33,079 nucleotides of DNA from a virus. Each line of letters opens with the position of its first letter. Position 1 is the first letter of the stretch. Shown one piece after another: positions 6,018 through 26,152 of the stretch. The notes under the pieces are model-generated. The model saw nothing but the letters and a program-made list of their open reading frames with translations. It ran no database searches and was not told where the DNA came from. The DNA lies in the IMG/VR virus record IMGVR_UViG_3300022745_000117, positions 1 to 33,079 of that record. One strand, written 5' to 3'. Made by a program: the position numbers and the translations under genes.

Positions 6018-6020
6018 TGC

Positions 6021-9208: not shown

Positions 9209-9209
9209 G

Positions 9210-12200: not shown

Positions 12201-12998
12201 AAGGCTCCCCGAAAACTCGTAGTAGATTTGACTGAGTGCGCGAGTGGTTCCCGTCATGTCCGACTCTGTGCCAACGACAAGATTCATTGCCGTCTGCATC
12301 GCCCCCGACGCTTCCCTAACGTTACCCATTTGAGTCGCGAGTTGGTAGTAACCCTCCCCTACCGTTTTGTAGTCAAGCCCGGACGTAGCGGAGTCGGCGG
12401 CAATGCTTGCGGCGGCGTACTGCCTGTCTCCATGACCTGTAACACGCGCCACACGTGCCGACTGCTTGTCAAGTTCAATGGTCGCTTGTATCGTCTCCCC
12501 AATCGCCCGTGTCACCTCCCCAAACACGCGAGAGAGCAACTGATACCGCAAAAAGGAGGTGAAGAAGTTGTCACCATGCGCTTTGCCTTGAACTAAAGCA
12601 GAACTTAGCGAGTTTACAGAGGTAACTGCCGCTCTTGTATTGCCGCCCAATGCAGAGAGGGAGGTGCTCGCACTGGTAGCACTTTGGGAGTACGCTTTAA
12701 GGGATGTCGATGCTTGCGCGGTTGTATTGGCGTAGTTGCGCGTGGATTGGTTTGCGGTTTGCGTTAGGGAGGAGAGAGCAGAGAGTTGCACCCCCGCAGT
12801 ACGCGCCGCAATGGTAAAATCACCTAAACTCTTAACCGCTTTGTCGGCACTTACGGAGAGGGTATCAAACGCTTTAGAGGCACTACCGAGAGAGGGTACA
12901 AGTGCGTCTACTGCCCCCTTGTTCTTCTTCATTTCGGCAGTGAGGGCTTTTATATCCTCTAAGCCTACCACCTGTATCTCTATTTGTCGGTTTGCCAT
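9210..12998 (-). CDS. Tail tape measure protein
   Basis: At 1,262 aa this is the longest gene in the window and follows the tail chaperone genes, as expected of a tape measure. The N-terminal region is a long Ala/Ser/Thr-rich coil. About residues 160-450 resemble the TP901-type/PhageMin tail domain (AIGETIQATIELDKQSARVA ... LAPIAAAAHVAPEQVFAMVG). Hydrophobic segments lie near the C-terminus (GIPSLVAAGVAAGVTGAFGG and GLGAWGAIAGIGLDLLGSLF). ATG 12998 is chosen over an upstream start because it overlaps the previous stop (TAATG). By the rule of about 1.5 angstrom per residue the tail would be near 190 nm. It contains a short 15-bp tandem repeat. Confidence 0.93.
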   Translation of the reverse strand: MANRQIEIQVVGLEDIKALTAEMKKNKGAVDALVPSLGSASKAFDTLSVSADKAVKSLGDFTIAARTAGVQLSALSSLTQTANQSTRNYANTTAQASTSLKAYSQSATSASTSLSALGGNTRAAVTSVNSLSSALVQGKAHGDNFFTSFLRYQLLSRVFGEVTRAIGETIQATIELDKQSARVARVTGHGDRQYAAASIAADSATSGLDYKTVGEGYYQLATQMGNVREASGAMQTAMNLVVGTESDMTGTTRALSQIYYEFSGSLDQASGKVENFRRIGDAIAITYKLTNTEVNELTQSLKYLAPIAAAAHVAPEQVFAMVGALDKAGIRGSMAGTGSAQFISNLISKYDDSLGGVAKGKNLATFTRERNAQGGLDIIKTLQNIISVAERLGRTDTSKAEKFLQTVSGSERSFRFTGAIAALKEAMNDILGLEKKVGESLHTGGTRYAEELAKEMKDTFSNKIATAWESTLSVMSIKWSQFSKTLGLSQLLGDIALVNQEFLSFEKQKQEANSFVNNLSGRQSAAAGSVYLGSYLANRVGAITEGVHTYQDMEDAGVPPAIIDKVMAKAKVKGAYTAPSGFGPFWKGSSVTAQGMADILKEFQREERIKPSLPPTSALATPRPPAMGGLGTKPDKNAGNKAERLAEDMARQKQSDYFEWLRATKGEDALEEARIRANYNEAKTRSPRLARETFEADMKALRERRTEKQQIEVEENAQERQSRANRSYEIRRKMSDGGEVTDAFDEMRTGLQEKGLSFADRVNLVKIWQNKKTAIGVAKIYEQMGENPFNTADNWSDITANYRMSAYDSRIRGLDLGYRGNALTATQGGELALLEQKRTVAQEALAQEALAQETRGTENFKRFTEALENANKAIVDFKDNLEKQAYQRGIAAIGERRNDALFELEMSQGVVGSSGAFGQSLSAAHARVGIYRKEMAERAMAFVFSPESERESNANLFKESVKDFRRASKELADLPLQRYIQTRDSVAQTLNGGIVNWLRGNGSLGGAVRGVGDMVVNKALEGMVEKWTNPLVTSVTNQITALDANTAALTALPLQMQSVMTGSGSAGGGISAGNGIPSLVAAGVAAGVTGAFGGADGKGGTPPKLSAKHGASYQNGLGQAAGAYSLFAQGQENGVTAGGLLGAGMAGSQLFKGLGAWGAIAGIGLDLLGSLFHKKKQDPMENTRNWHFGTQNAPDRFFYEAYRFRVTGQMPTAAQLGLTTTNYQPPTVIINIDGRKAMDSQITKSIRGASTTYTTQNLLNVP
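10444..10481 (-). repeat. 15-bp tandem repeat in the tape measure gene
   Basis: About 2.5 copies of a 15-base unit (TGTGCCAGTGCCTCT on the plus strand) encode ALAQE repeats in a helical coil of the tape measure protein. Repeats of this kind can change copy number by slippage and so alter tail length slightly. Confidence 0.8.
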
Positions 12999-13435
12999 TA
13001 GCCAATAGCCTCCAAAGCACACGCAAGCAAAATATCTGCCAAGCGTTCCTCTCCCACCGTCGCAAAGCCTTTTTCAAGAAACTGGGAGAGTTCTTCTTGG
13101 TGCGAAGCGTAGTCAAACCCCTTCTCGCTCACTCCATGCCCTTCTGCCACTCCCACAAACACCGAAGAGCCTTCCTGCCTTACCTCAATATGGTCGTACA
13201 TATCGCCGCTTAGAATCTCAGGTTGGTCAAAGGCTTTCCCTGCGTACCTCTTAAATCTCTTTAGTGAGGGCTTTCGTTTAGAGTACTCAGGAGAGAGCGT
13301 GTACGCCTCCTCCGTACCCAACACAGAGCGGACACCCTCTTGCACGGCTTCGCCTCCCCGTCTCGCAAACTCGGAGAGTATCTCTTGCGGCGAGTTTTCA
13401 GAGGGTATATCTGGTGCTTGCAGGGTCATCTTCAT
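12998..13435 (-). CDS. Hypothetical tail-region protein, 145 aa
   Basis: Unrecognised. It lies between the chaperone pair and the tape measure gene. The ATG at 13435 overlaps the stop of the upstream frame (ATGA) and is preferred over a GTG 21 bases earlier. The sequence has an amphipathic N-terminal half (SPQEILSEFARRGGEAVQEG), a basic centre (SKRKPSLKRFKRYAGK) and a short C-terminal helix. No membrane segment or zinc site. A tail-assembly role is inferred from place only. Confidence 0.6.
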   Translation of the reverse strand: MKMTLQAPDIPSENSPQEILSEFARRGGEAVQEGVRSVLGTEEAYTLSPEYSKRKPSLKRFKRYAGKAFDQPEILSGDMYDHIEVRQEGSSVFVGVAEGHGVSEKGFDYASHQEELSQFLEKGFATVGEERLADILLACALEAIG

Positions 13436-13731
13436 ATCTTCAAACTCTTCCCCCACTCCTCATAAATCGCGTGTATCTTTTGAGGGGTACGCTTCTTGAG
13501 TGCGTTCTGCACGGATTGGTGGTACGCCTGATGTGCCTTAGAAGTGCCGTCGCCCATAATGGCGCTGTATTTCGTAATCCATCCTAGAATCGCCATACCC
13601 CAATGGGGTATCTCTGCCTCTTTCGCTATCCAGCCAGCCACTACGAGCGGGTTGCCTAGCGCGTACTCTTTGGCTAGGTGCGCCGTCGTTATCAGCCGAC
13701 TGGCTAGGTAGGGATTTCGTTCACCTGTACG
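13432..13731 (-). CDS. Tail assembly chaperone C-terminal extension (T frame, probable frameshift product)
   Basis: This frame is open from 13731 to the TGA at 13432 and lies -1 to the preceding chaperone gene, overlapping its end by 28 bases. It encodes RNPYLASRLITTAHLAKEYA followed by NPLVVAGWIAKEAE, continuous well upstream of the first usable start (GTG 13641), so most of the conserved-looking part would be lost without fusion. In lambda-like tails the second chaperone is made by programmed -1 shifting from G to GT. The shift must fall between the T-frame stop at 13734-13732 and the G stop at 13706-13704. I see no canonical X-XXY-YYZ heptamer. CCT (13712-13710) slipping to CCC is one candidate. 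Confidence 0.65.
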   Translation of the reverse strand, partial: RTGERNPYLASRLITTAHLAKEYALGNPLVVAGWIAKEAEIPHWGMAILGWITKYSAIMGDGTSKAHQAYHQSVQNALKKRTPQKIHAIYEEWGKSLKI

Positions 13732-14366
13732 CTATCTAGTGACCGATACGCCTTCAAAATCTCTGTCTTTGCCTCTTCTGTGAAGTCAAGGTACTCCTCA
13801 ACGGTGAAGGCACTTCTTGAGTGGTCGTAGCCCAATCGAAACGCTCTCGCCAATATCTCCGCATTCTGGTACTTGTACTCGATGTTCTGCTCAAGCAGGG
13901 CGCGGTAAGACCTCATGCAGAGTTTAAGCCGATCTGTCTCCGAGAAGGCGAGAATACGCGCCGTCGCCTCTTTCTCTCTGCCCTCTATGAACTCTCTCTG
14001 CTTCTGCTTCGCCTCCTCTGCCTCTTTTTCGTGCTGCGCTTGTAGTTCGTCATGGTCGCCGGGCTTGTCGGCAGGTTCAGGAGGGTAGGGGTCAGGGTAT
14101 CGGTTTCGGGCATCTCCCCACCACTCGAAGTAGGCACTCGCAATGACCGACTGCGTTTGTTCCTCTGGGGTCATGCTTGCAAACGCTTGGTACTGTGCGT
14201 CGTAGAGCGAACCCTTCGGCATCTCCGAATAGTTAGCAGTGGCTTCATGGGTACGCACCTTTGCGGCGTTCAATGCCGCGTCCATCTCATGCGCGTTCAG
14301 GGTCTTCACCCAATAGGACTCCCCAAAGAAGGTTATCTCTTTAGCGGGGATGGTAGGTATCGGCAT
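13704..14366 (-). CDS. Tail assembly chaperone (G-type)
   Basis: The 220-aa protein lies between the tail tube and tape measure genes, the place of tail assembly chaperones. It begins MPIPTIPAKEITFFGESYWV and has a proline-rich loop (about residues 90-105), then a highly charged coiled coil (HEKEAEEAKQKQREFIEGRE) and a helical C-terminus. Such proteins coat the tape measure during tail polymerisation and are absent from the mature virion. ATG 14366 follows GAGGAG. Its end overlaps the -1 frame extension described separately. Identification is by position, size and overlapping-frame architecture rather than by a diagnostic motif. Confidence 0.75.
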   Translation of the reverse strand: MPIPTIPAKEITFFGESYWVKTLNAHEMDAALNAAKVRTHEATANYSEMPKGSLYDAQYQAFASMTPEEQTQSVIASAYFEWWGDARNRYPDPYPPEPADKPGDHDELQAQHEKEAEEAKQKQREFIEGREKEATARILAFSETDRLKLCMRSYRALLEQNIEYKYQNAEILARAFRLGYDHSRSAFTVEEYLDFTEEAKTEILKAYRSLDSVQVNEIPT

Positions 14367-14403
14367 TTCGTCTGCTCCTCGTTGCAGGGAAATAGTCTCC
14401 CGT

Positions 14404-14431
14404 CGCCCCTACATCGAGGGTTGTAAGGGCG
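14404..14431 (-). other. Intercistronic hairpin after the tail tube gene
   Basis: Positions 14404-14413 pair with 14422-14431 (nine pairs, one mismatch) around an 8-base loop. It sits in the 85-base gap between the tail tube gene and the chaperone gene. No T-run follows on the minus strand, so it may protect or separate the abundant tail tube message rather than terminate it. Confidence 0.5.
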
Positions 14432-14451
14432 AACGGAAGGCGGGAAGGGGA

Positions 14452-15657
14452 TTAAGAGACGGTGATTCCGCCCATAGAACCCGAATAGGTTCCTGCTACG
14501 TCCCCAAGAGCGGCGGCGGTAAGAGAGTTCCAAATCGAAACCTTAAAGTCTTGCCCTGCCGAAGCGTCGTATATCGCGTCAAATTCGAGCGAAACCATGA
14601 GCATGGTGTCACTTACACGCACGGGCGCACTGTTTACGCGGGCGTTGGGAATGTAGAACTCTATCGCGTAGTAGATTCCACTGGTTCCTATCTGAGAGCC
14701 GATGTACTTCACGTTTACCGCGAGTTTCTTGTGTCCGAGCGCGGCAAGTACAAGGTCGCTCGCCTCAAAGGTGAAGTTAAGCGTACCTGTCACCATGCCT
14801 TGAGTGCAGACAAGTGCCTCTGGGTCACGCCCCGAACCCCCTACAGGGTTGCTTACCAGTGTGCGTACCGAATCGATTTTGCTTCCCTCAAGGAACTTGT
14901 GATTCGTGAACGAACTGCCGTTAATGGTGAGGATAGTAGCACCGAACCCGCTCTCTGCACCGTATGCCTGACCTGCAAAGGCAAGCGCACCGTTCCCCTG
15001 ATTCCCCTGTGCAATATCCACAAACGAGGGGCTTGTCGTAGTCTTGGTAGACGCGCCTCCCATGCGAGAGGGCAGGTTTGCCGCGCTACTGGTAAAGTCG
15101 TAGTCAGTCTTCACTCCTGCACTGTCGTAGGTGTTGGGTACTTGCGCGTGTCCCGTAACCCCAAACTCATAGCCCAATACGTCCCCTAAAGTAAAACTCA
15201 TGCGGTCAAATACACACCCTGCGGTAACACGCCCGTAGTCGCCGTCTTCAAACTTCTCCTCTATCACGCAGGTTGCCGTTTTGCGTACAGGGGTAAAAAC
15301 GTGCTTATAGGCGGCACTTAGCAGGGTCGTAGCGGCTTGCGCGGTAGTCTGTACCGCTCTGCCAAAATGCGCCCGCATAGGATAGTACATCACCTCTGGG
15401 TCTATAAACCCGCTGAACCCGCCCTTGTACTCGTTCGCTAGGTGGAAATGTTGGGTAGGGACGTAGTTCGCGTCAATCACGCTCGGCTTTTGTGTCTTGG
15501 GGGTAGGAATGATACCGCCGCCCGGCAGAACGTTGCCAAATCGGGCAGGGTTGGTAGTCGCAACCCCAATTTGAGTACTCGTTACAGGCACGGTTAAATA
15601 GGTAGATTCGGGGGTAATCCCAATCGCGGAAACGCTCCCCGCTAGCGGTCTAGTCAT
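14452..15657 (-). CDS. Major tail (tube) protein
   Basis: A 401-aa beta-rich protein with few charged helices, starting MTRPLAGSVSAIGITPES. It contains repeated beta-type blocks such as VIEEKFEDGDYGRVTAGCVF and a central MVTGTLNFTFEASDLVLAAL stretch, and ends in an Ig-like Gly/Ser-rich region. It lies upstream of the chaperone pair and tape measure, the conserved place of the tube protein. It is longer than minimal tube proteins (about 150-250 aa), so it probably carries an extra surface domain. SD is GGAGTAAAGAGAG. Confidence 0.8.
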   Translation of the reverse strand: MTRPLAGSVSAIGITPESTYLTVPVTSTQIGVATTNPARFGNVLPGGGIIPTPKTQKPSVIDANYVPTQHFHLANEYKGGFSGFIDPEVMYYPMRAHFGRAVQTTAQAATTLLSAAYKHVFTPVRKTATCVIEEKFEDGDYGRVTAGCVFDRMSFTLGDVLGYEFGVTGHAQVPNTYDSAGVKTDYDFTSSAANLPSRMGGASTKTTTSPSFVDIAQGNQGNGALAFAGQAYGAESGFGATILTINGSSFTNHKFLEGSKIDSVRTLVSNPVGGSGRDPEALVCTQGMVTGTLNFTFEASDLVLAALGHKKLAVNVKYIGSQIGTSGIYYAIEFYIPNARVNSAPVRVSDTMLMVSLEFDAIYDASAGQDFKVSIWNSLTAAALGDVAGTYSGSMGGITVS

Positions 15658-15663
15658 CTCTCT

Positions 15664-16272
15664 TTACTCCTTTGGTAAATCTGCGCCGCCGTTCGCATGG
15701 AGTACAAGCGGGCGCGTTCCGGTGAGGGTGTTTATATAGATACCGTTTTCTCGCTTCACCCACTCCCCTGCCCTAAAAAGGCACTGGAAAAGCCTACACT
15801 CAGTATCTAACGTGAAGGCGTTCGGGTTTGCTAGGTAGTACTCGGTGAAGATGGCTTGGTCGTTCACCTCTGCGGGGATACGGTCAACCCGCATAGCGTC
15901 AAACAGTTTGCGAATCTCTCCTGCGGTTCCGATGTAGCAACCACTATTCACAAATCGGAACGGTGTGTCCCCTTCGGGGTAGTCTGCCTCTCTGTCTGGG
16001 TATGGGAAGCAGTTCGCCTCCGCGTTCATCAGTACCCCCGATACCCCCAAACTTCTGTACCGTGTCTCTATCACGGGTACACTTACCTCTAGTTGCACGT
16101 CGTAGCCGTCCACAAAGCAGACAAGGCTCTCTGGGGCTACCTCGTAAACAAACCTCTGAACCGCGTGTATCTTCTGCATTAGCCCGATGTAAGGCTCACC
16201 ACCCCACAGGTTCAGAACAGGTTCCCGAAACGAAATCCGAGAGGGGTCAGAGGCGTAGGTAACGAGGAACAT
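15664..16272 (-). CDS. PLOD-like (collagen lysyl glycosyltransferase type) glycosyltransferase
   Basis: The 202-aa protein carries the ordered motifs of the glycosyltransferase domain found in procollagen lysyl hydroxylases (PLOD/LH3) and related viral enzymes: CFVDGYDVQL near 52-61 (metal/sugar-nucleotide Asp), NAEANCFPYPD near 83-93, RFVNSGCYIG near 106-115, NDQAIF near 137-142, TLDTECRLFQ near 154-163 and LVLHANGG near 189-196. It should transfer a sugar from a UDP-sugar. The substrate is unknown. ATG 16272 overlaps the stop of the upstream glycosyltransferase (TAATG). An upstream in-frame extension is rejected. Placed among head/tail genes, it may glycosylate virion proteins. Confidence 0.8.
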   Translation of the reverse strand: MFLVTYASDPSRISFREPVLNLWGGEPYIGLMQKIHAVQRFVYEVAPESLVCFVDGYDVQLEVSVPVIETRYRSLGVSGVLMNAEANCFPYPDREADYPEGDTPFRFVNSGCYIGTAGEIRKLFDAMRVDRIPAEVNDQAIFTEYYLANPNAFTLDTECRLFQCLFRAGEWVKRENGIYINTLTGTRPLVLHANGGADLPKE

Positions 16273-17060
16273 TAGAGTCGCTTCTCCCGTAAAACCGTTA
16301 CCTCTCTTGCCCAACCGTGCCAGAAGTCGTAGTTCAGGGTATCCGCATTTTCTTGCGCTATCGGGACAGGCACACCCTTCACAAAATGCCCGTAGCGGTT
16401 CGTAACGTGCCCCCCGCTCCCGATGTAGGACGCGCTATAGACCTGACCACCCACTTGAGGGAAGTTTGCCCAACCGTCCGAATCCACGTGCCAGCAGGGT
16501 AGTGTCAAGTCTATCAAGGGCTTTTGGAACCCCGATTCCACTGCGTCAAGGCAAAACTGGTAGTCTTCGGCGGGTCTATCGTGCGTGTAGGTGGCAGGTT
16601 CACGGAAGCCCACTTTCTCAAGCACCTCTCGCCGAATGAGCATACAGCCCATGCCCACACCTAAGACCTCTTGTGTATCACCTTCCGTAAAGATTCCCGC
16701 CTGTCCGAGATGTATCCCCTTCCTGCCCTGCTGTACCTCTAGCATGACAGGCGCAAGAGGCTCCGAATGGGTGCGTATGAGGTAGAATCCGCTCGCAATA
16801 TCCCGATTGTGTGCCAGTAGCCGCGTAACGATGTCGGCAGGAGGAACCATATCGGAATCGTGAAAGTAGAGGTGGGTGCATCCTGTTTTCAGAAACGCGA
16901 GTCGCATCTCTTCCCGTGCTTGTGCGATTCTTGGCACGACCTCACACTCTTCAGGGGCGGTATCGTGAAAGAGTGCCACCTCAAAGGGGAGTGCTTCCAG
17001 AAGAGGGCGGCAGTACTCTTTGCTTGCCCCTATCGGGGAGGCGATAAACACACTAGGCAT
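16272..17060 (-). CDS. GT-A type glycosyltransferase
   Basis: The 262-aa protein begins MPSVFIASPIGASKEYCRPL, has the helical AQAREEMRLAFLKTGCTH segment and then the DXD-type motif FHDSDMVPP (residues 66-74) that binds metal and the nucleotide sugar. GFYLIR and GVGMGCMLIRREVLEKVG follow, typical of a GT2-like acceptor-side region, then HDRPAEDYQFCLDA (catalytic acidic region). ATG 17060 overlaps the end of the upstream gene by 8 bases. It is paired with the PLOD-like enzyme. Sugar and acceptor are not known; a virion protein is the likeliest acceptor from position. Confidence 0.8.
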   Translation of the reverse strand: MPSVFIASPIGASKEYCRPLLEALPFEVALFHDTAPEECEVVPRIAQAREEMRLAFLKTGCTHLYFHDSDMVPPADIVTRLLAHNRDIASGFYLIRTHSEPLAPVMLEVQQGRKGIHLGQAGIFTEGDTQEVLGVGMGCMLIRREVLEKVGFREPATYTHDRPAEDYQFCLDAVESGFQKPLIDLTLPCWHVDSDGWANFPQVGGQVYSASYIGSGGHVTNRYGHFVKGVPVPIAQENADTLNYDFWHGWAREVTVLREKRL

Positions 17061-17589
17061 TACTGCTTGGGGTGTCGCTGTAGATGATTTTGACTTCAAT
17101 GACAATCCTCGATTCCGATATGTCAGGAGAGCCGCTTCCGGTTCCGCTCTCCGTCTCTCTCATGTTCTCCACACACAGACTAATGTAGGGTAGACTGCCC
17201 CCCGCACGGTTCTGCATGAGGGTACTCTTCACGTTTCGGGCAAGTTGTTCTGCTTGGTTCTCGGCACTGGTAAGCGTTGTCGCCCGTGCCACTACGATAA
17301 GGTACGCCGTCAACTCTCGAAACTGGGTTCCAACGGGGTTTATGCTCCCCCTGTAGACCCTATCCGTCCACTTTAACCCCTTTGTGCCACAGTAGACCGC
17401 AGGACGTGCGCTATCGCTCTTTTCTGCCGTTTTGTGCAGGTTTACGCGCCCATCTACCGCCGAAGAGCCACTGTACACACTCACCACGCTAGTCCAACCC
17501 GCCGAGTAAGCGTTACCTCCTGACCACACATAGGGAGAGGTCGAAGCCGCGAGTAGGTCAAGCAGTTTTTTCGTGATGGTGTAGCGCAC
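17053..17589 (-). CDS. Tail-completion/terminator-like protein
   Basis: The 178-aa protein lies after the connector genes and before the tail tube (interrupted by two glycosyltransferases), where tail terminator or completion proteins are normally encoded. It has an N-terminal helix (ITKKLLDLLAASTSPYVW), an Ala/Glu-rich helix in the middle (TSAENQAEQLARNVKSTLMQ) and a C-terminal strand (ESRIVIEVKIIYSD), similar in layout to tail terminators. GTG start overlaps the preceding stop (TAGTG). Identification is from place and layout. Confidence 0.55.
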   Translation of the reverse strand: MRYTITKKLLDLLAASTSPYVWSGGNAYSAGWTSVVSVYSGSSAVDGRVNLHKTAEKSDSARPAVYCGTKGLKWTDRVYRGSINPVGTQFRELTAYLIVVARATTLTSAENQAEQLARNVKSTLMQNRAGGSLPYISLCVENMRETESGTGSGSPDISESRIVIEVKIIYSDTPSSNA

Positions 17590-17897
17590 TATTCACCCTC
17601 CACAGGAACCGCAAGGCACAACCAATAGGCAAGCGTACCTGCCGCGTACTGAGGTGCAACCGCCTTCAATGTCATGCTTTGCCCACTTCGCGCAATCGTC
17701 TGCCCATTCACGGGGCTATAGGAGGGCAATACCCACACGTCATAGCAGACTTGACCCCAACTCGATTCACTCACGAACTGTTGTACTCGGTTCAGGTTCG
17801 CTTGCTTCCACAACGCTTTACCCACAGAACTCCCATTGATGATGGTGGTGTCGCCGTACTTGTTGATAAGATTCGTAGGTGTGCTTGAGAGGCTCAT
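17589..17897 (-). CDS. Hypothetical head-tail joining region protein, 102 aa
   Basis: Unrecognised protein in the connector block. It starts MSLSSTPTNLINKYGDTTII and is beta-rich, with hydrophobic end LAYWLCLAVPVEGE. ATG overlaps the stop of the gene before (ATGA), and its stop overlaps the next start, so it is translated in a coupled series with the connector genes. Size and place suit a head-closure or minor tail component, but no motif proves it. Confidence 0.55.
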   Translation of the reverse strand: MSLSSTPTNLINKYGDTTIINGSSVGKALWKQANLNRVQQFVSESSWGQVCYDVWVLPSYSPVNGQTIARSGQSMTLKAVAPQYAAGTLAYWLCLAVPVEGE

Positions 17898-18148
17898 TCA
17901 ATCACCTCTAACCTGCTGTAGAGGGGTTCCCATATCGGCGGCGTTGCGCCCTCTGGTAGTTCGTCAAACGAATCGCTACGAACTAATATCTCAAACACCC
18001 TCCTAAATGGCAGATTTCGAACCTCTACAATCTCCATATCGCTAGGCATATTTGTCGACGCAATATGACAGCACGGAGCCATTCCGCCGAGTTTCAGAAA
18101 CTCTTCAAAAAACGGATACCCCATCTCAAACCTGCGTAGTCGGTTCAT
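17894..18148 (-). CDS. Hypothetical protein, 84 aa
   Basis: Unrecognised. It begins MNRLRRFEMGYPFFEEFLKL and contains a CC pair (APCCH) plus a strand-rich end (EIVEVRNLPFRRVFEILV). Coupled by ATGA overlaps to genes on both sides within the connector block. No further motif. Possibly a minor head-tail joining factor by place. Confidence 0.5.
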   Translation of the reverse strand: MNRLRRFEMGYPFFEEFLKLGGMAPCCHIASTNMPSDMEIVEVRNLPFRRVFEILVRSDSFDELPEGATPPIWEPLYSRLEVIE

Positions 18149-18843
18149 GAAAATATCGTCCTTCCAAACCTGCTAAGTGCCTGTTTGAATATCCCGTTAA
18201 AAGCCTCGCCGTAACGGGATAGTGTCTGTAGGTCGTACTTCTCCGTTACCGCGCCCTCTAACCGCATTTCACTGACTCCCCCGCCTGTTGCAAAGCCGAG
18301 TAGTTGCCCTAATGCAACCTGTGCCCCCTTTGCGAGAATGGCGTTTCTCTCACTAGCAAGGAGTGTTGACCTGTAGCCTCGCTTCCCCACCACCTTGATA
18401 CTGTTCACATCCTGCCCCGTTATGCCGTAAGTCGGGAACCCGTAAAAAACGTTAGTGAACTGAATACCCGTGTAGGTGCTTGCGTCTACCGCAACGAGGG
18501 TATAGTCTTTGTTTAGTGTTAAGACCGTTCCGCCTGTCCCGTTCTGTAGCCCGACCGTTACAGAGGTTACGCTTACCATGCCCGCCGCCGCACCCTGATT
18601 CCCAAACTCCAAAATAGGGTACTCGTTAGGTATCATCATGATTTTTCGGGGGCTGTAGTAGAGGGTTTGGTCACTCGTATCTGCCAAAAACGGGATATAC
18701 CCGCTCTGACTCTCCCACGCTTGCACCCCTGCGTCTGCCGCTCCGTCAAAATCTACGAGCGTACCGGGCGAGGTGGTAAAGTCCAAATAAGGGAACGCCC
18801 CCTGAACGTAACTCTTTAAGTCGCTACCAGTCGGGTAAGCCAC
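18145..18843 (-). CDS. Head-tail connector/adaptor protein
   Basis: The 232-aa protein starts (GTG) AYPTGSDLKSYVQGA and has the usual adaptor layout: an N-terminal helical part (DAGVQAWESQSGY), a beta-rich middle carrying YSPRKIMMIPNEYPILEF and a C-terminal helical part with ASERNAILAKGAQVALGQLL. This pattern is common in HK97 gp6-like or related phage adaptors that bind the portal from below. GTG start has AAGGAG 8 bases upstream. It follows the capsid block, as expected. Assignment is by layout and position. Confidence 0.6.
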   Translation of the reverse strand: MAYPTGSDLKSYVQGAFPYLDFTTSPGTLVDFDGAADAGVQAWESQSGYIPFLADTSDQTLYYSPRKIMMIPNEYPILEFGNQGAAAGMVSVTSVTVGLQNGTGGTVLTLNKDYTLVAVDASTYTGIQFTNVFYGFPTYGITGQDVNSIKVVGKRGYRSTLLASERNAILAKGAQVALGQLLGFATGGGVSEMRLEGAVTEKYDLQTLSRYGEAFNGIFKQALSRFGRTIFS

Positions 18844-18847
18844 TGTT

Positions 18848-19039
18848 TTACTCCTTGTCGCCGTCCTTCAAAACAGGCTTACCCCTACGCGGGGATTGGG
18901 GTACAGAGAGGTGCTTGTCACGCACCCAAATTTCCGTACCATTTACGGTCTGTATCTGGATTCTGTAATCGTCACCCTCTATGTGGTCAACAAGGGTTAC
19001 TTCCCCTTCAATCTGCACTTTGTCGCCTACTTTGTACAT
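18848..19039 (-). CDS. Small hypothetical beta-rich protein, 63 aa
   Basis: The protein begins MYKVGDKVQIEGEVTLVDHI and continues with strand-rich YRIQIQTVNGTEIWVRDKHL, the pattern of a small SH3-like barrel. The ATG at 19039 has AAAGGAG just upstream and overlaps the end of the preceding gene by 13 bases. An upstream extension to 19114 has no such site. Function unknown; similar small barrel proteins are frequent in phage genomes. Confidence 0.6.
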   Translation of the reverse strand: MYKVGDKVQIEGEVTLVDHIEGDDYRIQIQTVNGTEIWVRDKHLSVPQSPRRGKPVLKDGDKE

Positions 19040-19515
19040 GACACACTCTCCTTTACGCTTTGGGCTGTCTGCGCGTAATCTTGAAACGATTCGAAGAGTG
19101 TGTCTAGCATCCACTCTTTCGCCTCTTCGATAGTGTCAAATTCTCTACTTCCGAGCGCGTCAGTACTCACGATGTAGCCAATCCATCGGTTTTCTGCTAA
19201 TACAGAAGGCTGTGCCGTGCATAGATAACCGCCAATACAGAGTATCTCGGTGCGGCAGTCCCGTAACTGTTGCCAGCCTATCGGTTCGTCTCGCCATGCG
19301 ATATTATCATCTAGCCTATCCGAGACGTAGGGCTGAATATCTGCGTTTAGGTCTACTTCCACATACACACGCAAACCCTGCAACCGTGTTGAATGTAGCC
19401 CAAACACGCGGCTTGACGGGACAAGTCGTATTAAACTCTGAGCGGGGCAACCGTCGCCCCCTTTGACCGTTGAATAAGAGTAACGCCCGTCTTTAGATTT
19501 TAGTAAGCACTGCAT
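19027..19515 (-). CDS. Hypothetical protein, 162 aa
   Basis: Unrecognised. It begins MQCLLKSKDGRYSYSTVKGG, has several Cys residues without a clear zinc pattern and ends in a helical region (TIEEAKEWMLDTLFESFQDY). It is located between the decoration-like protein and the connector genes, unusual for an obviously structural block. ATG 19515 follows GGGAG. It could be a moron-type accessory gene or a minor head protein. Confidence 0.6.
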   Translation of the reverse strand: MQCLLKSKDGRYSYSTVKGGDGCPAQSLIRLVPSSRVFGLHSTRLQGLRVYVEVDLNADIQPYVSDRLDDNIAWRDEPIGWQQLRDCRTEILCIGGYLCTAQPSVLAENRWIGYIVSTDALGSREFDTIEEAKEWMLDTLFESFQDYAQTAQSVKESVSCTK

Positions 19516-19551
19516 TTTTCAACTCCCTCGATGTTGTTTCTGCCCTCAAGC

Positions 19552-19575
19552 AAGGGGAGGTGTTACGCTCCCCTT
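19552..19575. other. Intercistronic 8-bp hairpin downstream of the capsid genes
   Basis: AAGGGGAG (19552-19559) pairs perfectly with CTCCCCTT (19568-19575) around an 8-base loop. It lies in the gap after the decoration-like gene. Neither flank has a full T-run (plus-strand side has TTTG), so it is more likely an RNA-stability or partial termination element after highly expressed head genes. Confidence 0.5.
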
Positions 19576-19594
19576 TGTTCAGAGCAGGTCGTTA

Positions 19595-19969
19595 CTACTG
19601 CTTGCGATATCGTAGATTCACGATACCGCCCACGTTCCCACCTGTTGCAGGGGAACCCGTCACCGTGTAGACCATGCGAATATAGCGCAGTTTCCCGATG
19701 TACGAGATGTCCTGCAATGTGTTCGCGGTCATTGCGCTGAGGGCTCCAATCTGGTCAGCCGCCGCCACATCCGTATAGGTCGAGTTGTCGCTCGACTCTT
19801 GGAGTTTGGGCGTAAACGTTCCGTCCGTAATGGCTCCTGCGTAGAAAATGACCTGATTGCCGTTGGTGTTGGCAAGGTCTATTCCCGTTCCGTTCACCGT
19901 TGCGGTTCGCAGGAGTGGCACAACGGAAGATTTCGGTGTAAAGTCGGGTGAAAATGCTCTTTGACTCAT
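19595..19969 (-). CDS. Capsid decoration-like / minor head protein, 124 aa
   Basis: A beta-rich protein directly downstream of the major capsid gene. It contains NQVIFYAGAITDGTFTPKLQ and ESSDNSTYTDVAAADQIG followed by ISYIGKLRYIRMVYTVTG, a pattern common in small phage structural proteins encoded after the capsid gene. Its position, size and lack of enzymatic motifs suggest a head decoration or fibre-like protein. The gap to the capsid gene is only 18 bases. Confidence 0.6.
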   Translation of the reverse strand: MSQRAFSPDFTPKSSVVPLLRTATVNGTGIDLANTNGNQVIFYAGAITDGTFTPKLQESSDNSTYTDVAAADQIGALSAMTANTLQDISYIGKLRYIRMVYTVTGSPATGGNVGGIVNLRYRKQ

Positions 19970-19987
19970 GGTGTGTTAATCCCCTTC

Positions 19988-21301
19988 CTATGCCAGAACT
20001 AGGCGAGAGAACGCCTCTTCGAGTACGGGCTGTCCGTCCGTCTCTTTGCGGAGAATGTAGCCGTTTTGGTTGGTATCGGCGTATTTTTCGAGAAGAACTT
20101 GCAAGTCCATCTCTAGCGAGTCCACTATCCAGTAGTAGGACATATTGCCAAACGCCATCACGTACAATCCTGTAGTGAGAGTGTTAGGCGCGTACTCAGA
20201 CTCGCATACAGGGCGATTCATGAGAAGTTCGGAAAGCCCCTGCAAACCACCGCCGGGACCCGTAACCATTCCAGACTGACCTGCCGCACCGATTGTCCAC
20301 AGGTAGTTCCCGTTGGAGTCTTTGATTTGGCGCACGTTGCTGACAACGTCACGATGTAACACCCAAACACCTTGAGACCGATACGGAGCCTTGCACTTCA
20401 TAAAGGTCTTGATGATGTCGTTTCCTGCTATGGTGGTGCTAGATGCCGCCGTCACGTCGCGAGAGGTCGAAATCCCGTTCGAGTCTGCGGTATAGATGCC
20501 AAGCGGTTGGTTTGCACCGTTCCCTGTAAGAAACGCCTTCTCTTCGGCAATCGCCGCCTTGTACGCAAGACGGTCTAGCATTACGTCCACGATGTTGGGA
20601 GATTTGCGTACAAGGGTTTTAGAGACCTTGAGCAGTTTAGCCAAAGGAGAGGGACGCATTTCGCGTTTGCCCGTCGCCATCGTGGTCTCTTCATTCCCTG
20701 TAGAAATCTCGTTCGTCCAGTCCGAGTCGGAGGGGTCGGTATCCACTGCCACCACGCCAAGCGAATCCGCGTGAAGCATGGGCGGTTGTACGCCCCCCAA
20801 TTGACGCATCCAAACCTTATCTTTAACGAGGGTCAGGATGGTATTGGATAACTCCTCTGAAAGCACCGCAAATCCACCACCAGTCGGGTTGTCGGCTTGG
20901 TATGCCTTTACCTCGCGCAGTTTCTTCGCCGCGTCTTGCAGGTTGTACTTGGTAGTCTCCCCTTGCAAAAACTTGTTGAAGGTCTGCATATACTCACGGT
21001 TTGCGGCTTTCAGTGCCGCGTCGGAGTTGCCACCTGCATCTCTTTGTTGAGCAGGGCGCGAGTCGGAGGGAATGCCGTCTGCCCACGCTTTGAGGTTGTC
21101 GGCGGCTTTTGCCACGCGGTCTTCATGCTGGAGGTCTTCAATCTCTTTTTTGAGCGAGTCGGCGACATCGAACGCTTTCTCAATCTCAGCGAGTGTCAGT
21201 CCCGTAGGGTTTTCTGCCCGTCCGTCAAACTGTTTGCGTAGGGTCATCGCATGACCTAGCGCATCATTAAACGCTTTCTGTCGTTCAGCCAGTAGGCTCA
21301 T
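19988..21301 (-). CDS. Major capsid protein, HK97 fold
   Basis: The 437-aa protein has an N-terminal coiled-coil scaffolding region (delta domain, about residues 1-75; EIEKAFDVADSLKKEIEDLQ) and a linker, then the mature capsid beginning near residue 100. TGGGFAVLSEELSNTILTLV (about 140-159) is the classic start of the HK97 core. The C-terminal part contains NGNYLWTIGAAGQSGMVTG and LYVMAFGNMSYYWIVD, typical of the A-domain/P-domain end. Length is normal for uncleaved HK97-type proteins. The adjacent protease presumably removes the delta domain. SD AAGGAG sits 8 bases before ATG. Confidence 0.92.
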   Translation of the reverse strand: MSLLAERQKAFNDALGHAMTLRKQFDGRAENPTGLTLAEIEKAFDVADSLKKEIEDLQHEDRVAKAADNLKAWADGIPSDSRPAQQRDAGGNSDAALKAANREYMQTFNKFLQGETTKYNLQDAAKKLREVKAYQADNPTGGGFAVLSEELSNTILTLVKDKVWMRQLGGVQPPMLHADSLGVVAVDTDPSDSDWTNEISTGNEETTMATGKREMRPSPLAKLLKVSKTLVRKSPNIVDVMLDRLAYKAAIAEEKAFLTGNGANQPLGIYTADSNGISTSRDVTAASSTTIAGNDIIKTFMKCKAPYRSQGVWVLHRDVVSNVRQIKDSNGNYLWTIGAAGQSGMVTGPGGGLQGLSELLMNRPVCESEYAPNTLTTGLYVMAFGNMSYYWIVDSLEMDLQVLLEKYADTNQNGYILRKETDGQPVLEEAFSRLVLA

Positions 21302-21313
21302 AGTTTTGTCTCC

Positions 21314-22111
21314 TTAACGGGAGGCAAACTCCCGTAAACGTAGAAGTTTAGAATCAAGTTGCGCCAGTCGCGGGTCTACCGCTTCCGTCACTGTTGGCTC
21401 TGCCTCCGCGTCCCGCAGGAGTCCTTTGAACCCTTCACGCGCAATACGCTCCGCCTGTTTTCGAGTAAAGCCCGCTTCCCGCAAGGCTCCTTCAAATTCA
21501 CGCAGAGTCGGAACGGGCGCGTCTCCGTCCCCATCCATCCCCTTCGCCTCCGTCGCAAGTGCGAGCGGGTTGGCGGGTATGCTAACAATCGAAAATTCAA
21601 CCAGTTCCGCCACTTTGGTAATGGCGCGGCAACGGTCTTTACAAGCGTTTATGCCTCTTGTGTCAAAGAGGCTCATGTCGTAGCCGTTATCTTTGGCGTA
21701 CTGCAAGAGGAGTTTGCCGTTGTCAAAATAGTGCGTCCCCTCCTCGTAATCGAGAAAGAAGCCGATAGAAAGCCCGACATTCAGCCCCTTCGCGAGCCTC
21801 TCCATGCAGACGGTGCGAGCATCTTGCGCCGCTTGGTGAGAGTGGAACTCCGCTTCGCAAAGCAGTTGGTTCCCCTTCTCCGTCGCACTGGTGGGCATCG
21901 CCACAGGAAGCGAACTCCAATCGTGCCCCACAGGTACAAAGCCGTTCTGACGAAAATCTTTGAGGCAGGATTTGAACGCGCCGGGAAAGATAACGTCATT
22001 CCACCAACTCCTATCCATCACGCCCGTCACGGAAGCCGCGCCTTTCAGGAGGTTCTCTTCAAACGCCGCGTCTTTCAGTGCAAACTGCTTCGCTACTGGG
22101 TTACTCTTCAT
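21314..22111 (-). CDS. HK97-family prohead protease
   Basis: Serine protease that matures the prohead by cleaving capsid delta domains. Motifs: VGHDWSSLPV with catalytic-type His at residue 63, LNVGLSIGF with Ser at about 115 and the closing VEFSIVSIPANPLA near 170-183. The C-terminal third (REFEGALREAGFTRKQAERI) is a separate helical, acidic/basic region, possibly a scaffold-like tail. Length (265 aa) is slightly above the family minimum for that reason. The ATG lies 11 bases inside the end of the portal gene, so translation is coupled. Confidence 0.88.
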   Translation of the reverse strand: MKSNPVAKQFALKDAAFEENLLKGAASVTGVMDRSWWNDVIFPGAFKSCLKDFRQNGFVPVGHDWSSLPVAMPTSATEKGNQLLCEAEFHSHQAAQDARTVCMERLAKGLNVGLSIGFFLDYEEGTHYFDNGKLLLQYAKDNGYDMSLFDTRGINACKDRCRAITKVAELVEFSIVSIPANPLALATEAKGMDGDGDAPVPTLREFEGALREAGFTRKQAERIAREGFKGLLRDAEAEPTVTEAVDPRLAQLDSKLLRLREFASR

Positions 22112-23363
22112 TTTCTTCCTCCGCGTCCGTTTCGGTATTCTCTTCCGCTACGTCTGCCGTCGTTTCGCGTATTTCGTCGTACTCTGCACCAAGCGGGGCG
22201 AGATTTAGTTTCCGCCGTGCCTCGTTCACGCTCATAACCGCGCCGCCTGTTGCAAGCACAAGACGCTTGACAAGCGCGTTCATGTCTTCTTGTAGTGCCA
22301 GCACCCGCGAAACGTCGTAAGCCGCGAACTCGGAGGGGTCTTGCGAAAACTCGGGCAGGAGGGCAAACGTTAGCGCGTCTGAAATCACGCCCATTAGCGG
22401 GAGTACCGCGTTCTGCCATGCCGCCCGTCGCGCCTCCTCGTAGTTGCTGTAGGTCTTGTTGGGGGTAGATAGCCCCGCGACCATCATGTCCAGCCCCATC
22501 GCCGCAAAAATGCGCTCCGCTTCGAGCATTGACATCCTATCAAGCATGAGTTCTTGAGGTGAGTACCCGATAGGCGTAATATCTACAGGAGAGCCGAAAA
22601 CACTTGGCTTACCGCGTTCGTCTCCACTCATGCGGGCGTGTAGTTTGGTCTTAATCCGCTCCGCTTCCGTCTCGCTCGAAATCGTCGTCCCATCTTTCGG
22701 CGTGATAATCAGCCCCGGTACGCCAAAGTTTTCCAGTACCGCCCCGTGATAGGTGGAAATCTCGTTATCAGAGAATATCTGCCTATCCTGTTGTGCAAGA
22801 GTAGATAATCCCCGCCGTACAAATCGAGGGTCTATGCCGTGTCGGATATGAACAATATCCTCTACATCGTAGTAGGTGGTCTGTCCGTTCACCGTGTAGG
22901 CGTACCTCGTTATGTAGTCCGTGTCGGTGTCCCACTGTGCGGTTATGTTAAAATGGGGCAGATACCATAACTCACCCACTCGCCCCGAATTGTTCCGTAT
23001 TTTTACGAGGTAGGCGTTACCGTCTACAACCAGAGACAAGACCACGCCCGCAATAAGCGTTTTGTACCCGTAGTAGGGCGTAGGACGGCGCATAAATAAG
23101 GCGAGCGGGTGATTCGGGATAATTACATCTTCGTCACCCTGTTCGCGCTTCACGCACAGTCGCGCCTCTGGAAACGAATCGACAATCCACTTTATCCCAA
23201 TCGAGACGGCACTAGACCGCCATCTGTCACCAACTTTGAGCGCGTAGTCGAGCCGAGTACCGGGCAGGATAGTGGAGTACCAACCGATATTGCGCCCGCC
23301 CGCTAACAAAAAGCGAACGCGCTCTTTTATCCATGCCCCAGTGTCTCTGAGTAGGTTCGGCAC
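22101..23363 (-). CDS. Portal protein, HK97 type
   Basis: The 420-aa protein forms the dodecameric portal ring at one capsid vertex. It has the classic sequence features: NHPLALFMRRPTPYYGYKTL (about residues 83-102), SLVVDGNAYLVKIRNNSGRV, ELWYLPHFNITAQWD, DVEDIVHIRHG and a C-terminal helical stem with MLEAERIFAAMGLD. The C-terminus is strongly acidic. GTG start overlaps the terminase stop (TAGTG). It lies between terminase and protease, the standard HK97 order. Confidence 0.92.
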   Translation of the reverse strand: MPNLLRDTGAWIKERVRFLLAGGRNIGWYSTILPGTRLDYALKVGDRWRSSAVSIGIKWIVDSFPEARLCVKREQGDEDVIIPNHPLALFMRRPTPYYGYKTLIAGVVLSLVVDGNAYLVKIRNNSGRVGELWYLPHFNITAQWDTDTDYITRYAYTVNGQTTYYDVEDIVHIRHGIDPRFVRRGLSTLAQQDRQIFSDNEISTYHGAVLENFGVPGLIITPKDGTTISSETEAERIKTKLHARMSGDERGKPSVFGSPVDITPIGYSPQELMLDRMSMLEAERIFAAMGLDMMVAGLSTPNKTYSNYEEARRAAWQNAVLPLMGVISDALTFALLPEFSQDPSEFAAYDVSRVLALQEDMNALVKRLVLATGGAVMSVNEARRKLNLAPLGAEYDEIRETTADVAEENTETDAEEENEE

Positions 23364-24784
23364 TAATACATCCTCATCTCTGTACCACGTGTCAGTTTCG
23401 TATAAGCATCACTCGCGCCGTCCACTTGGTCATCGTGTTTCCCAAGAGGGAACCCTCTCAACTCCTCGATAAAGGCGCGGTTCCAAGCCCCTCTCACAAC
23501 CCGCACATTCCCCGCGTTCACCTGCGAGGAGAACGGTTCGGCGCGAGTCACCTTGTCACCACTCACCCTCACCGCCTCAAACCGAAATCCGTTAAAGACT
23601 TTCTGCCCCAGATAGCGGCTCTGGTCTTTTCCTGCACTGCCGGGATCTTCTGCGTAGCGTACAAACACACCCGCCCCATCTAGTTCGGCGGTCTGTCTCA
23701 TGGTTGCGTTTCGGTAGTCGGTGCTCCACTGTCCACGCACCACGTCCACAACGTAGGTGTAGCCATCCTCACCGATACCCACCTTCACCCCTGCCGTGTA
23801 GTCGCCATCGCCTTCCGTTGCCGCCGTATCCCATGCACGTACCAGCCGTAACCCCGCAGGAGCCGCATCTACGATTTCGATTTTACCGACCTTGAAGAAC
23901 GCGCCCTCTCTTGGGGTAGGATGACCTTGATATAGAGCGTCAAACGAGTAGCCGCCCTGCGTCGCCTTAATGTCTTCCAGTGCCGCAACGTCGTACCGCT
24001 CAGGGCATAACGCCTCGCCCTCTTTACGACCTAGTGGGTCGTTCTCTTCTGCCAGCGCAGGGAGGTTGATTACCTCCCACTCAGAGCCTTTTTCGCTTGC
24101 GAGTATACGACCTGCCAAATCGTCTTCATGCCAGCGTGTCATAATCAAGATGACTGCGCCGCCGGGCTCCAGTCGCGTGTAGAGGTCGTCTGTGTACCAG
24201 TCCCAACATTTGTTCCGATACGCTTCCGACTCTGCCTCTTCGCGACTCTTCACAGGGTCATCAATGATAATCAAATCACCGCCCTGCCCCGTGATACCAC
24301 CACCGACACCGACTGCCCTCATGCCGCCGCCTTGTGCCGTCTCCCAATCGTCTACCGCCGTTCGGTCATGGGCTAAATCTAGCCGCTTCTCGGCAATCCG
24401 CCGCGCTTTGCGTCCTAATTTGGAAACAAACGTCGCGTTATACGCCCCCAGTATCACCCTCAGAGTCGGGTCGCGCTCTAGTCTCCACACCGCATACCGT
24501 ACCGTGACCATCTCCGATTTACCATGACGCGGCGGCATATTCAGCATGAGACGCTTACATTCACCACGCGAAACGCGGTCTAAGACCTCCTGCACATAGC
24601 GGAGGTGCGCCCAATTCCAATTCCATCTCGGCGTAACGTCGTGTAGCCATTCGGAAAAGTCAAGGCTACTCCTCCTCTCCCTCGATTGCCCCCGCCGCTT
24701 CGAGAAGTCGAACCGAGTGGGCTTGACAGACCTCAAGTAACGCCGCGACATCTCGAGCATTTTGGGTTCGTAGGTAGCCCGCAT
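23363..24784 (-). CDS. terL: Terminase large subunit
   Basis: Packaging ATPase/nuclease. Numbering from ATG 24784 (473 aa): Walker A MPPRHGKSEM near 83-92, Walker B DLIIIDDPVK near 170-179, motif III LIMTRWHEDDLAG near 213-225, then an RNase H-like nuclease with RAWDTAATEGDGD (Asp near 319) and HDDQVDG near 450-456. The order and spacing match TerL proteins. Start is uncertain: ATG 24784 has GAGGTG upstream and overlaps the small subunit gene by about 120 bases; ATGs at 24760 or 24751 are alternatives. It heads the packaging block with the HTH-bearing small subunit. Confidence 0.93.
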   Translation of the reverse strand: MRATYEPKMLEMSRRYLRSVKPTRFDFSKRRGQSRERRSSLDFSEWLHDVTPRWNWNWAHLRYVQEVLDRVSRGECKRLMLNMPPRHGKSEMVTVRYAVWRLERDPTLRVILGAYNATFVSKLGRKARRIAEKRLDLAHDRTAVDDWETAQGGGMRAVGVGGGITGQGGDLIIIDDPVKSREEAESEAYRNKCWDWYTDDLYTRLEPGGAVILIMTRWHEDDLAGRILASEKGSEWEVINLPALAEENDPLGRKEGEALCPERYDVAALEDIKATQGGYSFDALYQGHPTPREGAFFKVGKIEIVDAAPAGLRLVRAWDTAATEGDGDYTAGVKVGIGEDGYTYVVDVVRGQWSTDYRNATMRQTAELDGAGVFVRYAEDPGSAGKDQSRYLGQKVFNGFRFEAVRVSGDKVTRAEPFSSQVNAGNVRVVRGAWNRAFIEELRGFPLGKHDDQVDGASDAYTKLTRGTEMRMY

Positions 24785-25043
24785 CTGCACACACCTCGTA
24801 CACGCTAGTTTGCATTTTCAAGCATTTAGAGAGCGAGTCTAGCAACAGCGCATCTATGCTTTCGCGTTGCCGCTCCATCGCCTCGCTAACAGGAGGTGTT
24901 GCATTCAGCTTAGACCCTGCCAAATTCTCAACTATAGAGCGGACGGTATTGCGACTTAGCCTGTATTCGCGGGCGGCTTGTGCTTGGCTCATGCCCCCCA
25001 ATACTGCCGCCACCACCTGCGCCTGAATGTCTGGTGATATCAT
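24666..25043 (-). CDS. terS: Terminase small subunit-like HTH protein
   Basis: The 125-aa protein has an N-terminal helix-turn-helix (GGMSQAQAAREYRLSRNTVR, about residues 16-35), a linker and a long helical oligomerisation region. TerS proteins bind the packaging site (pac or cos) and load DNA into TerL. Its gene overlaps TerL and lies just upstream of it, as usual. ATG 25043 follows AGGTGG. Three phased repeats lie just before the start and are a candidate binding site. Confidence 0.8.
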   Translation of the reverse strand: MISPDIQAQVVAAVLGGMSQAQAAREYRLSRNTVRSIVENLAGSKLNATPPVSEAMERQRESIDALLLDSLSKCLKMQTSVYEVCADAGYLRTQNARDVAALLEVCQAHSVRLLEAAGAIEGEEE

Positions 25044-25051
25044 TTGACCAC

Positions 25052-25080
25052 CTGCTCAAAATCTGCTCAAAACTGCTCAA
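25052..25080 (-). repeat. Three phased 8-bp repeats ahead of the small terminase gene
   Basis: CTGCTCAA occurs at 25052-25059, 25063-25070 and 25073-25080 (spacing 11 and 10), that is TTGAGCAG on the coding strand, and is followed by a short T/A run. The copies recur at about one helical turn and lie between the stop of the holin-like gene and the ATG of the small terminase gene. They could be the terminase recognition site or an operator. Confidence 0.6.
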
Positions 25081-25265
25081 TTTTTTGGTGGCAGTGTCAC
25101 CTGCAACGCTCGTAGTACCGCCACCACCATTGCGAGACCTGCGCCCCACCGAGCAGGAACCAGTGCGCGAATCGCCTCCTCATGGGAGAGCAGGAAGAAA
25201 CCCACTACCGAGAGGGCGTACTGCGCTTGAATAATCTGCCGTTGTCGTTTTAGTTGCTGTCTCAT
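25077..25265 (-). CDS. Holin-like small membrane protein, 62 aa
   Basis: A short protein with two hydrophobic segments, YALSVVGFFLLSH (about residues 16-28) and WGAGLAMVVAVLRALQVTL (about 40-58), joined by a charged/proline turn, and a basic N-terminus (MRQQLKRQRQ). This matches small two-helix phage holins. The ATG overlaps the stop of the preceding membrane/coiled-coil gene (ATGA). Together they form a probable lysis cassette placed before the terminase genes. Confidence 0.65.
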   Translation of the reverse strand: MRQQLKRQRQIIQAQYALSVVGFFLLSHEEAIRALVPARWGAGLAMVVAVLRALQVTLPPKN

Positions 25266-25534
25266 TTGCCACCGTCCAGTTTGCGCTCTATGCGCTGGAG
25301 TCTGTCTTTGATGTCGGAGAGGGCGGTCTGCACCACACTAGAGGTAGATTCCACCCCGCGAATCCGCGTTTCGTGGTCAGCCTCTCGCGATATCAATTCT
25401 GCAAGTTTGCTTTTGGTCTCTTGGCTACTTGAGACCACCCCCGCCCCCATAACGAGGATAGTTATTAGCAGTGATACCGTTGCCACGTAAAAATTGCCAC
25501 GTGTGATAGGTGTGTCTGTGTTACGAGTTGGCAC
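25262..25534 (-). CDS. Single-TM coiled-coil protein, lysis-associated (XhlA-like layout)
   Basis: The 90-aa protein has one membrane segment (FYVATVSLLITILVMGAGVV, about residues 15-34) and then a long coiled coil (AELISREADHETRIRG ... ALSDIKDRLQRIERKLDGG). One-TM proteins with a coiled coil are often found next to holins, sometimes as spanin- or XhlA-like partners, but the order TM-then-coil here differs from XhlA, where the membrane segment is C-terminal. The GTG at 25534 is chosen for its GGAGG site 7-8 bases upstream; the longer reading frame runs into the terminator. Confidence 0.6.
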   Translation of the reverse strand: MPTRNTDTPITRGNFYVATVSLLITILVMGAGVVSSSQETKSKLAELISREADHETRIRGVESTSSVVQTALSDIKDRLQRIERKLDGGK

Positions 25535-25559
25535 GTACCGACCTCCGAGATAGGGTAAA

Positions 25560-25614
25560 AACGACAAAAGCCCACCAAATCCCCCTGCAAAAGCAGGTAG
25601 AAAATGGTGGGCTT
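25560..25614 (-). terminator. Strong minus-strand terminator just after the late promoter
   Basis: AAGCCCACCA (25568-25577) pairs perfectly with TGGTGGGCTT (25605-25614). Inside it, CCTGC/GCAGG (25584-25588/25593-25597) forms a second small stem. On the minus strand the outer stem is followed by TTTTGTCGTTTTT. The promoter at 25663-25692 lies about 50 bases upstream, so most transcripts should end here unless antiterminated. Confidence 0.8.
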
Positions 25615-25662
25615 AATGTGCCTCTATGGGCGTAGGTAGCCCTGAATAATTCAGCTGTGATT

Positions 25663-25692
25663 ACTATACGACAATTCGAGATATTTTGTCAA
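25663..25692 (-). promoter_or_regulatory. Near-consensus sigma70-type promoter (probable late promoter)
   Basis: On the minus strand: -35 TTGACA (25692-25687), 18-base spacer, -10 TATAGT (25668-25663). Transcription should start near 25656 and run left toward the holin/terminase genes, first meeting the 5-bp hairpin CTGAA/TTCAG (25642-25654) and then the terminator at 25560-25614. This promoter-leader-terminator order is like the lambda late promoter region. Confidence 0.75.
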
Positions 25693-25951: not shown

Positions 25952-26152
25952 CTATTTTTGAGCCTCCTGCCCTGAGTTGGCGGGAGGCTTTTGTACCTCT
26001 GTTACCTGCATTTTGCCCTCCGAAACCGAGACCTCGTACCTCGTACCGCAAGCACGGCACTCTATCAGCACCCCCGAAGCGTGGGTAAAAACAGAGAGTA
26101 TCTGAGCGTCGTACCAGCATCGCAAAATGATTCGTTTCGGCAGGGCTGTCAC
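25952..26152 (-). CDS. Small Cys-containing protein, 66 aa
   Basis: The protein begins (GTG) TALPKRIILRCWYDAQILSV, contains CRACG (about residues 32-36), a single zinc-binding half-site, and ends in a Gln/Lys-rich tail. GTG start overlaps the TGA of the gene before it (GTGA). The last ten codons coincide with the hairpin of the plus-strand terminator at 25962-25988. It is the final gene of the early block. Not recognised. Confidence 0.55.
   Translation of the reverse strand: MTALPKRIILRCWYDAQILSVFTHASGVLIECRACGTRYEVSVSEGKMQVTEVQKPPANSGQEAQK
25962..25993 (+). terminator. Plus-strand terminator, overlapping the end of a minus-strand gene
   Basis: GCCTCCTGCC (25962-25971) pairs with GGCGGGAGGC (25979-25988), ten pairs with one G-U on the plus strand, around a 7-base loop, followed by TTTTG on the plus strand. 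On the minus strand the hairpin is followed by TCAAAAATAG, which is not a T-run. It therefore best fits the end of a short rightward transcript from the control region. Confidence 0.65.

Follow-up and report, generated by a model that had tools for sequence, protein, structure and literature searches.

A recurrent promoter-terminator pair at the early/late junction of a tailed phage suggests control of its late genes by read-through

The late genes of the phage presented here are probably controlled by read-through of a promoter-proximal terminator, in a way that would resemble the working of lambda PR'-tR'; as read from the sequence, we put the chance of this at about 65%. It is the best explanation because the promoter-terminator pair recurs in related phages at the same early/late junction and is almost absent elsewhere. 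The window, that is the whole stretch of DNA analyzed, is the complete IMG/VR virus record IMGVR_UViG_3300022745_000117 (33,079 bases) and belongs to a tailed phage whose host is probably found in the Armatimonadota. To our knowledge, late-gene antitermination is known almost entirely from lambdoid phages of enterobacteria. Most genes of the window are coded on the minus strand. The early block (about 33 to 26 kb) codes for a helicase fused to a methyltransferase, for a DnaD-like helicase loader and for several small proteins, while the late block (25.5 to 3.7 kb) contains the lysis, terminase, portal, head and tail genes. The promoter, leader and terminator are placed between the two blocks, on the minus strand as well:

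26149-26439 and 26442-27008, minus strand: two small early genes with Cys/HTH motifs, the candidates of an earlier note on this DNA
25952..26152, minus strand: last early gene, 66 aa, zinc-ribbon-like, candidate antitermination factor
25663..25692, minus strand: sigma-70-like promoter TTGACA-18-TATAGT, putative late promoter (11/12 match; promoter at the equivalent place in relatives)
25615..25656, minus strand: leader of about 42 nt (sequence and folding)
25557..25614, minus strand: predicted intrinsic terminator (sequence, folding and counterparts in relatives)
25262..25534, minus strand: first late gene, 90 aa, membrane/coiled-coil, predicted holin- or Rz-like (weak PHROG matches to lysis families)
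25077..25265, minus strand: second late gene, 62 aa, rich in TM segments and, by inspection, holin-like
24666..25043, minus strand: small terminase-like protein with HTH (L002, L220 and others have TerS homologues next to TerL)
23363..24790, minus strand: large terminase
22101..23363, minus strand: portal protein
3734..22111, minus strand: remaining late genes (head protease, major capsid and tail genes including the tape measure)

The first late gene starts with GTG at 25534, is preceded by the ribosome-binding site GGAGG and begins 23 nt past the terminator tail. A similar small protein is found in the same block of L046 (L-numbers denote the related loci compared with the window, drawn from viral contigs and bacterial genomes). 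A Pfam search with the second late gene gave no match. Upstream, about 260 bp separate the last early gene from the promoter, and within this gap lies a divergent 67-aa ORF (25732-25935, plus strand) with a CxCG..H..C motif; it has no relatives in phage records and is possibly an inserted gene or a product of chance. Past the distal end of the late genes, the plus strand codes for a Mu Gam-like end-protection protein at 1568-2065.

Read from the minus strand, the promoter consists of the -35 hexamer TTGACA (25692-25687), an 18-nt spacer and the -10 hexamer TATAGT (25668-25663), as the earlier note had described it. No second promoter of at least 11/12 exists on either strand of the window, and from 25.7 kb to the end of the late block no other minus-strand promoter reaches even 10/12. 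Transcription would start near 25656, at the beginning of a leader with the hairpin AGC-UGAA-UUA-UUCA-(GG)-GCU (25656-25638) and a GGGC/GCCC pairing. The terminator that follows has a 10-bp outer stem formed by AAGCCCACCA (25614-25605) and TGGTGGGCTT (25577-25568), a nested inner stem of CCTGC (25597-25593) and GCAGG (25588-25584), and the tail TTTTGTCGTTTTT (25569-25557). Both the leader of roughly 40 bases and the nested stems had been noticed before; the interval then assigned to the element (25560-25692) stops just short of the tail end at 25557. The predicted terminated transcript is about 95-100 nt long, in agreement with the RNA of about 95 nt expected earlier. Its 101-nt RNA folds at -45.2 kcal/mol, against -25.0 +/- 3.3 in dinucleotide shuffles (z = -6.1), and shuffling the whole window 60 times by dinucleotides gave no comparable promoter/terminator pair; promoter and terminator are thus far above chance. 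Rfam returned no riboswitch or other known RNA for the element, either at gathering score or at E-values up to 5, and comparison of the region with named phages at the DNA level gave chance matches only. Two smaller sequence features were considered after the fact. The motif TGTCG, forming an inverted repeat with the GACA of the -35, occurs in the promoter/start region of 4 of 13 elements (25692-25669 of the window, L046, L185 and L285) and may be bound by a regulator. The tails of the window (25569-25557), L254, L185, L046 and L220 have in common a U-tract split by CG; this feature has a background frequency of 19/206 (9%) and was missing from the later-fetched elements of L369, L374, L385 and L386, so the idea was dropped.

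On the reading that we prefer, a near-consensus promoter for the host sigma-70 placed after the early region would be constantly active in a cell that contains the phage DNA, and an intrinsic terminator would halt its transcript at about 95 nt. The lysis, packaging and structural genes would thereby stay off early in infection or in the prophage. Late in infection, a phage factor encoded in the early operon would allow RNA polymerase past the terminator and into the 22-kb late operon; less probably, the leader RNA itself would have a property that permits such read-through. Constant transcription of the lysis and head genes from so strong a promoter would be damaging, and the terminator would avert that. 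Late transcripts would have to cross it because no other good promoter was found, and also because the next gene begins only a few tens of nt past the terminator, as is the case in the window, L254 and L369.

Relatives were found through the terminase, portal, head protease and capsid proteins, in viral contigs as well as in bacterial genomes. Single-sequence scans with 26149-26439, the holin-like protein and the portal found no homologues, and alignments were required to find homologues where such scans failed. Of 291 genomes in the phylum of a Fimbriimonadaceae assembly (Armatimonadota), 37 contain a portal relative, and for this reason a host in that phylum is likely, not proved. Many of the related phages are prophages in Armatimonadota genomes; L185 and L220, for instance, lie inside genome assemblies of the same phylum as a Fimbriimonadaceae MAG. 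Exact TTGACA-17/18-TATAAT sequences occur 10 times in three Armatimonadota genomes, while the reversed-pattern and wrong-spacing (24/25) controls gave 0, and hosts of this type therefore use such hexamers.

The relatives were oriented and scanned in the same way as the window, for a strong promoter followed by a strong terminator within 125 nt. In the carriers the pair follows the last early gene and precedes the lysis/terminase genes, with a common order of last early gene, promoter, short leader, terminator and lysis/TerS/TerL. The promoters are TTGACA-17-TATCCT in L046, TTGACA-17-TATAGT in L185, TTGACA-17-TAGACT in L220, TTTGCA-17-TATAGT in L187/L226 and TTGACA-18-TAGAAT in the L250/L252/L254/L329-L341 clade; the L369/L374/L386 clade and L385 also have a promoter-terminator pair at the junction. 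Within a first set of 18 loci, which includes the window itself, a promoter of at least 10/12 with a terminator was present in the 4.2 kb before the portal in five (the window, L046, L185, L220 and L232), compared with 0.03 expected from shuffles and with 2 matches in 518 kb elsewhere. The criteria were fixed after the window had been seen and before a second set was fetched, for which a slightly less strict tail rule and an energy cut-off of -16 instead of -18 kcal/mol were used, in the shuffles likewise. There, 3 of 25 clusters have the pair before the portal (the L329/L250 clade, the L369 clade and L385), the first of them, L329 and its kin, being the same clade as L250/L252/L254 that had earlier been found via the capsid; 0.05 were expected from shuffles, and elsewhere a single match occurred in 576 kb. 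Under these criteria 13 of the 18 loci and 22 of the 25 clusters lack a pair despite having the junction in view, and the layout is therefore common, not universal. As judged from these sequences, it is real and recurrent at the same junction of diverged relatives. The earlier comparison with the PR'-6S-tR' layout, in which the late genes would need read-through, is thus well supported by the relatives as an arrangement.

The surroundings of the pair vary. In L185, L187/L226, L220 and the L254 and L369 clades, the end of the last early gene lies no more than about 35 nt from the -35: the gene extends through the -35 in L254 and L220, and stops within about 12 nt of it in L185, L226, L369 and L386. 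Spacers between -35 and -10 are not conserved between clades, nor are any promoter or leader elements beyond the hexamers conserved between the window and its relatives. In L185 (7400-7835) and L187 (10350-10900), the first late gene is set apart from the junction terminator by about 400-550 bases in which no clear gene is seen, and L187 has a second terminator directly ahead of the late genes. L232, with its portal on the plus strand, bears two promoter-leader-terminator cassettes (about 8900-9045 and 10847-10970), both with TTGACA-17-TATAAT and the shared leader AATTTCATAGATTTTGGCTCTTGGGAAGCCCGTTA; one precedes a holin-like gene and the other the terminase, and the gene upstream of the first copy resembles a host gene. 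A leader of about 57 nt is conserved in L369 (5015-5096), L374 (1143-1225) and L386 (2998-3081) despite different neighboring genes, and is possibly an RNA switch before TerS. In L066-L068 and L072, a promoter-like site and a terminator follow an early gene that has no Pfam or NCBIfam match, and consequently these loci could not be used as a confirmed Q control. In the prophages L066 (3237-3380), L067 (3611-3750) and L072 (3700-3815) this is an unannotated gene of 150-160 aa, and several hundred bases separate the terminator from the terminases; possibly this is another unrecognized late switch.

The earlier note had recognized no antiterminator gene, and our searches agree: no known antiterminator was found among the upstream genes with Pfam, PHROGs or NCBIfam, and 26149-26439 and 26442-27008 matched no antiterminator family. 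The lambda/21 Q families (PF03589 and PF06530) had no match in the records of the window, L046, L254, L252, L369 and L386, while the controls (E. coli and others) were matched. The Q82 family (PF06323) had no match in the record of the window, but its positive control had none either; Pfam revealed no Q82-type protein among ten early and junction proteins. A -10-like AATTAT at 25651-25646 of the window fits NANNAT, but by inspection no such pause element is seen in L254, L046, L220 or L185, and no conservation is apparent. No Q binding element could be recognized in the window, there being no candidate protein of known specificity. With no lambda/21 Q match, no conserved pause element and no Rfam match, the former assignment to Q- or Put-type control is not supported. 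The suggestion that small zinc proteins are the candidates stands in part. Most lineages have a small early gene whose end lies close to the promoter, and its product is Cys-rich in four of the nine lineages examined (the window, L220, the L250/L252/L254 clade and L187/L226), though not in L185, L046, L369, L385 and L386. Between the zinc-ribbon-like protein of the window (25952..26152) and its L220 counterpart the similarity is marginal (E = 0.028). On the preferred reading, a protein would bring about the read-through.

Several other explanations could account for such an element. One is a switch of RNA only, or of RNA binding, in which alternative leader folds or a put-like element on RNA polymerase would act in place of a Q-like DNA-bound protein. 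The L369/L374/L386 clade offers the best argument for it, as its leader is strongly conserved in sequence and the 3' strand of its 5' hairpin is the same as the terminator arm, with two compensatory pairs (AGC/GCU to GAC/GUC) that keep the terminator pairing, which is what a switch between alternative structures would be expected to produce; this covariation is nevertheless a single event in one lineage of three sequences. In the window, GGGCU (25642-25638) is able to pair with the AGCCC of the terminator arm, and in L254 GGCGGCUU stands opposite AAGCCUCGCC, but such leader-to-arm pairing does not exceed that of shuffled leaders (p = 0.07 for the window, 0.31 for L254 and above 0.4 for most others). 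Since the Rfam search and the comparison of the window's leader with that of the L369 clade also speak against it, we consider this explanation unlikely. Three related ideas were rejected: homology of the two leaders (AGCTGA..CAG.GGCTAC) was not significant by shuffled alignment, additional matches in a leader motif scan of viral contigs were due to chance, and attenuator pairing as a general rule was not enriched over shuffles across the set. No close relative of the window fit for a covariation test was found.

Terminators commonly separate early from late operons, and the pair could serve insulation only, with early transcription ending there, an incidental or weak promoter, and a phage activator or sigma factor acting at a late promoter of unrecognized type. 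Several relatives indeed have a junction terminator with no good promoter before it; yet an 11/12 promoter stands directly ahead of the terminator in the window and pairs recur far above expectation, which leaves this explanation very improbable. Alternatively, the transcript of about 95 nt could be a small regulatory RNA in its own right; the late genes would then be transcribed from elsewhere, and the terminator would merely end the RNA and insulate the late block. The high stability of the transcript would suit such a role, and transcripts of this kind can yield prophage small RNAs, as is reported for IsrK of Gifsy-1 (PMC4825925). Against it, the leader and terminator sequences are wholly different between clades while the position is kept, unlike a conserved trans-acting RNA, and both the lack of an alternative late promoter of at least 10/12 and the closeness of the next gene to the tail argue the same way, so that a small RNA seems a rather doubtful account.

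We tentatively propose that phages of Armatimonadota and neighboring lineages achieve late read-through by an antitermination factor or leader RNA unrelated to Q, N and put, possibly by small zinc-ribbon proteins whose genes lie at the promoter, and that the switch is PR'-tR'-like but independently evolved. A recurrent junction cassette in the phages of a little-studied phylum would mean, if true, that the strategy is much wider and that further antiterminators remain to be discovered. Transcription attenuators work with alternative antiterminator and terminator hairpins; the possible leader/terminator pairing in the window and the covariation in the L369 clade are reminiscent of them, while the chance level of the pairing in the window and most relatives is not. 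The put RNA of HK022 acts on early operons, is about 70 nt long with two stem-loops and resembles other put RNAs (PMC9378689). Like put, the element of the window has a structured leader right after the promoter and a terminator downstream, but its leader is 42 nt long with short hairpins only and shows no detected similarity to put. In the Gifsy-1 IsrK region, as is reported (PMC4825925), a phage promoter likewise gives a short RNA linked to longer read-through transcripts; its sequence is unrelated and the role of IsrK was defined experimentally. In lambda PR'-tR', Q bound near the promoter loads onto a paused polymerase (PMC6606751; PMC7171158), and in Q-type systems a -10-like element in the initially transcribed region causes the sigma-dependent pause (PMC6606751). 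The window differs from lambda and phage 21 in having no PF03589 or PF06530 protein, no conserved -10-like pause element and no identifiable Q binding element, as well as in a probable host phylum very distant from E. coli, and membership of that family is without support. What it shares with PR'-tR' (PMC6606751; PMC7171158) is a strong sigma-70 promoter after the early genes, with an early gene directly upstream, closely followed by a terminator ahead of the late operon, as is typical of Q-type control; a short terminated transcript, predicted here; and lysis, packaging and structural genes that would be reachable by read-through only. By analogy, the element would work like lambda PR'-tR'.
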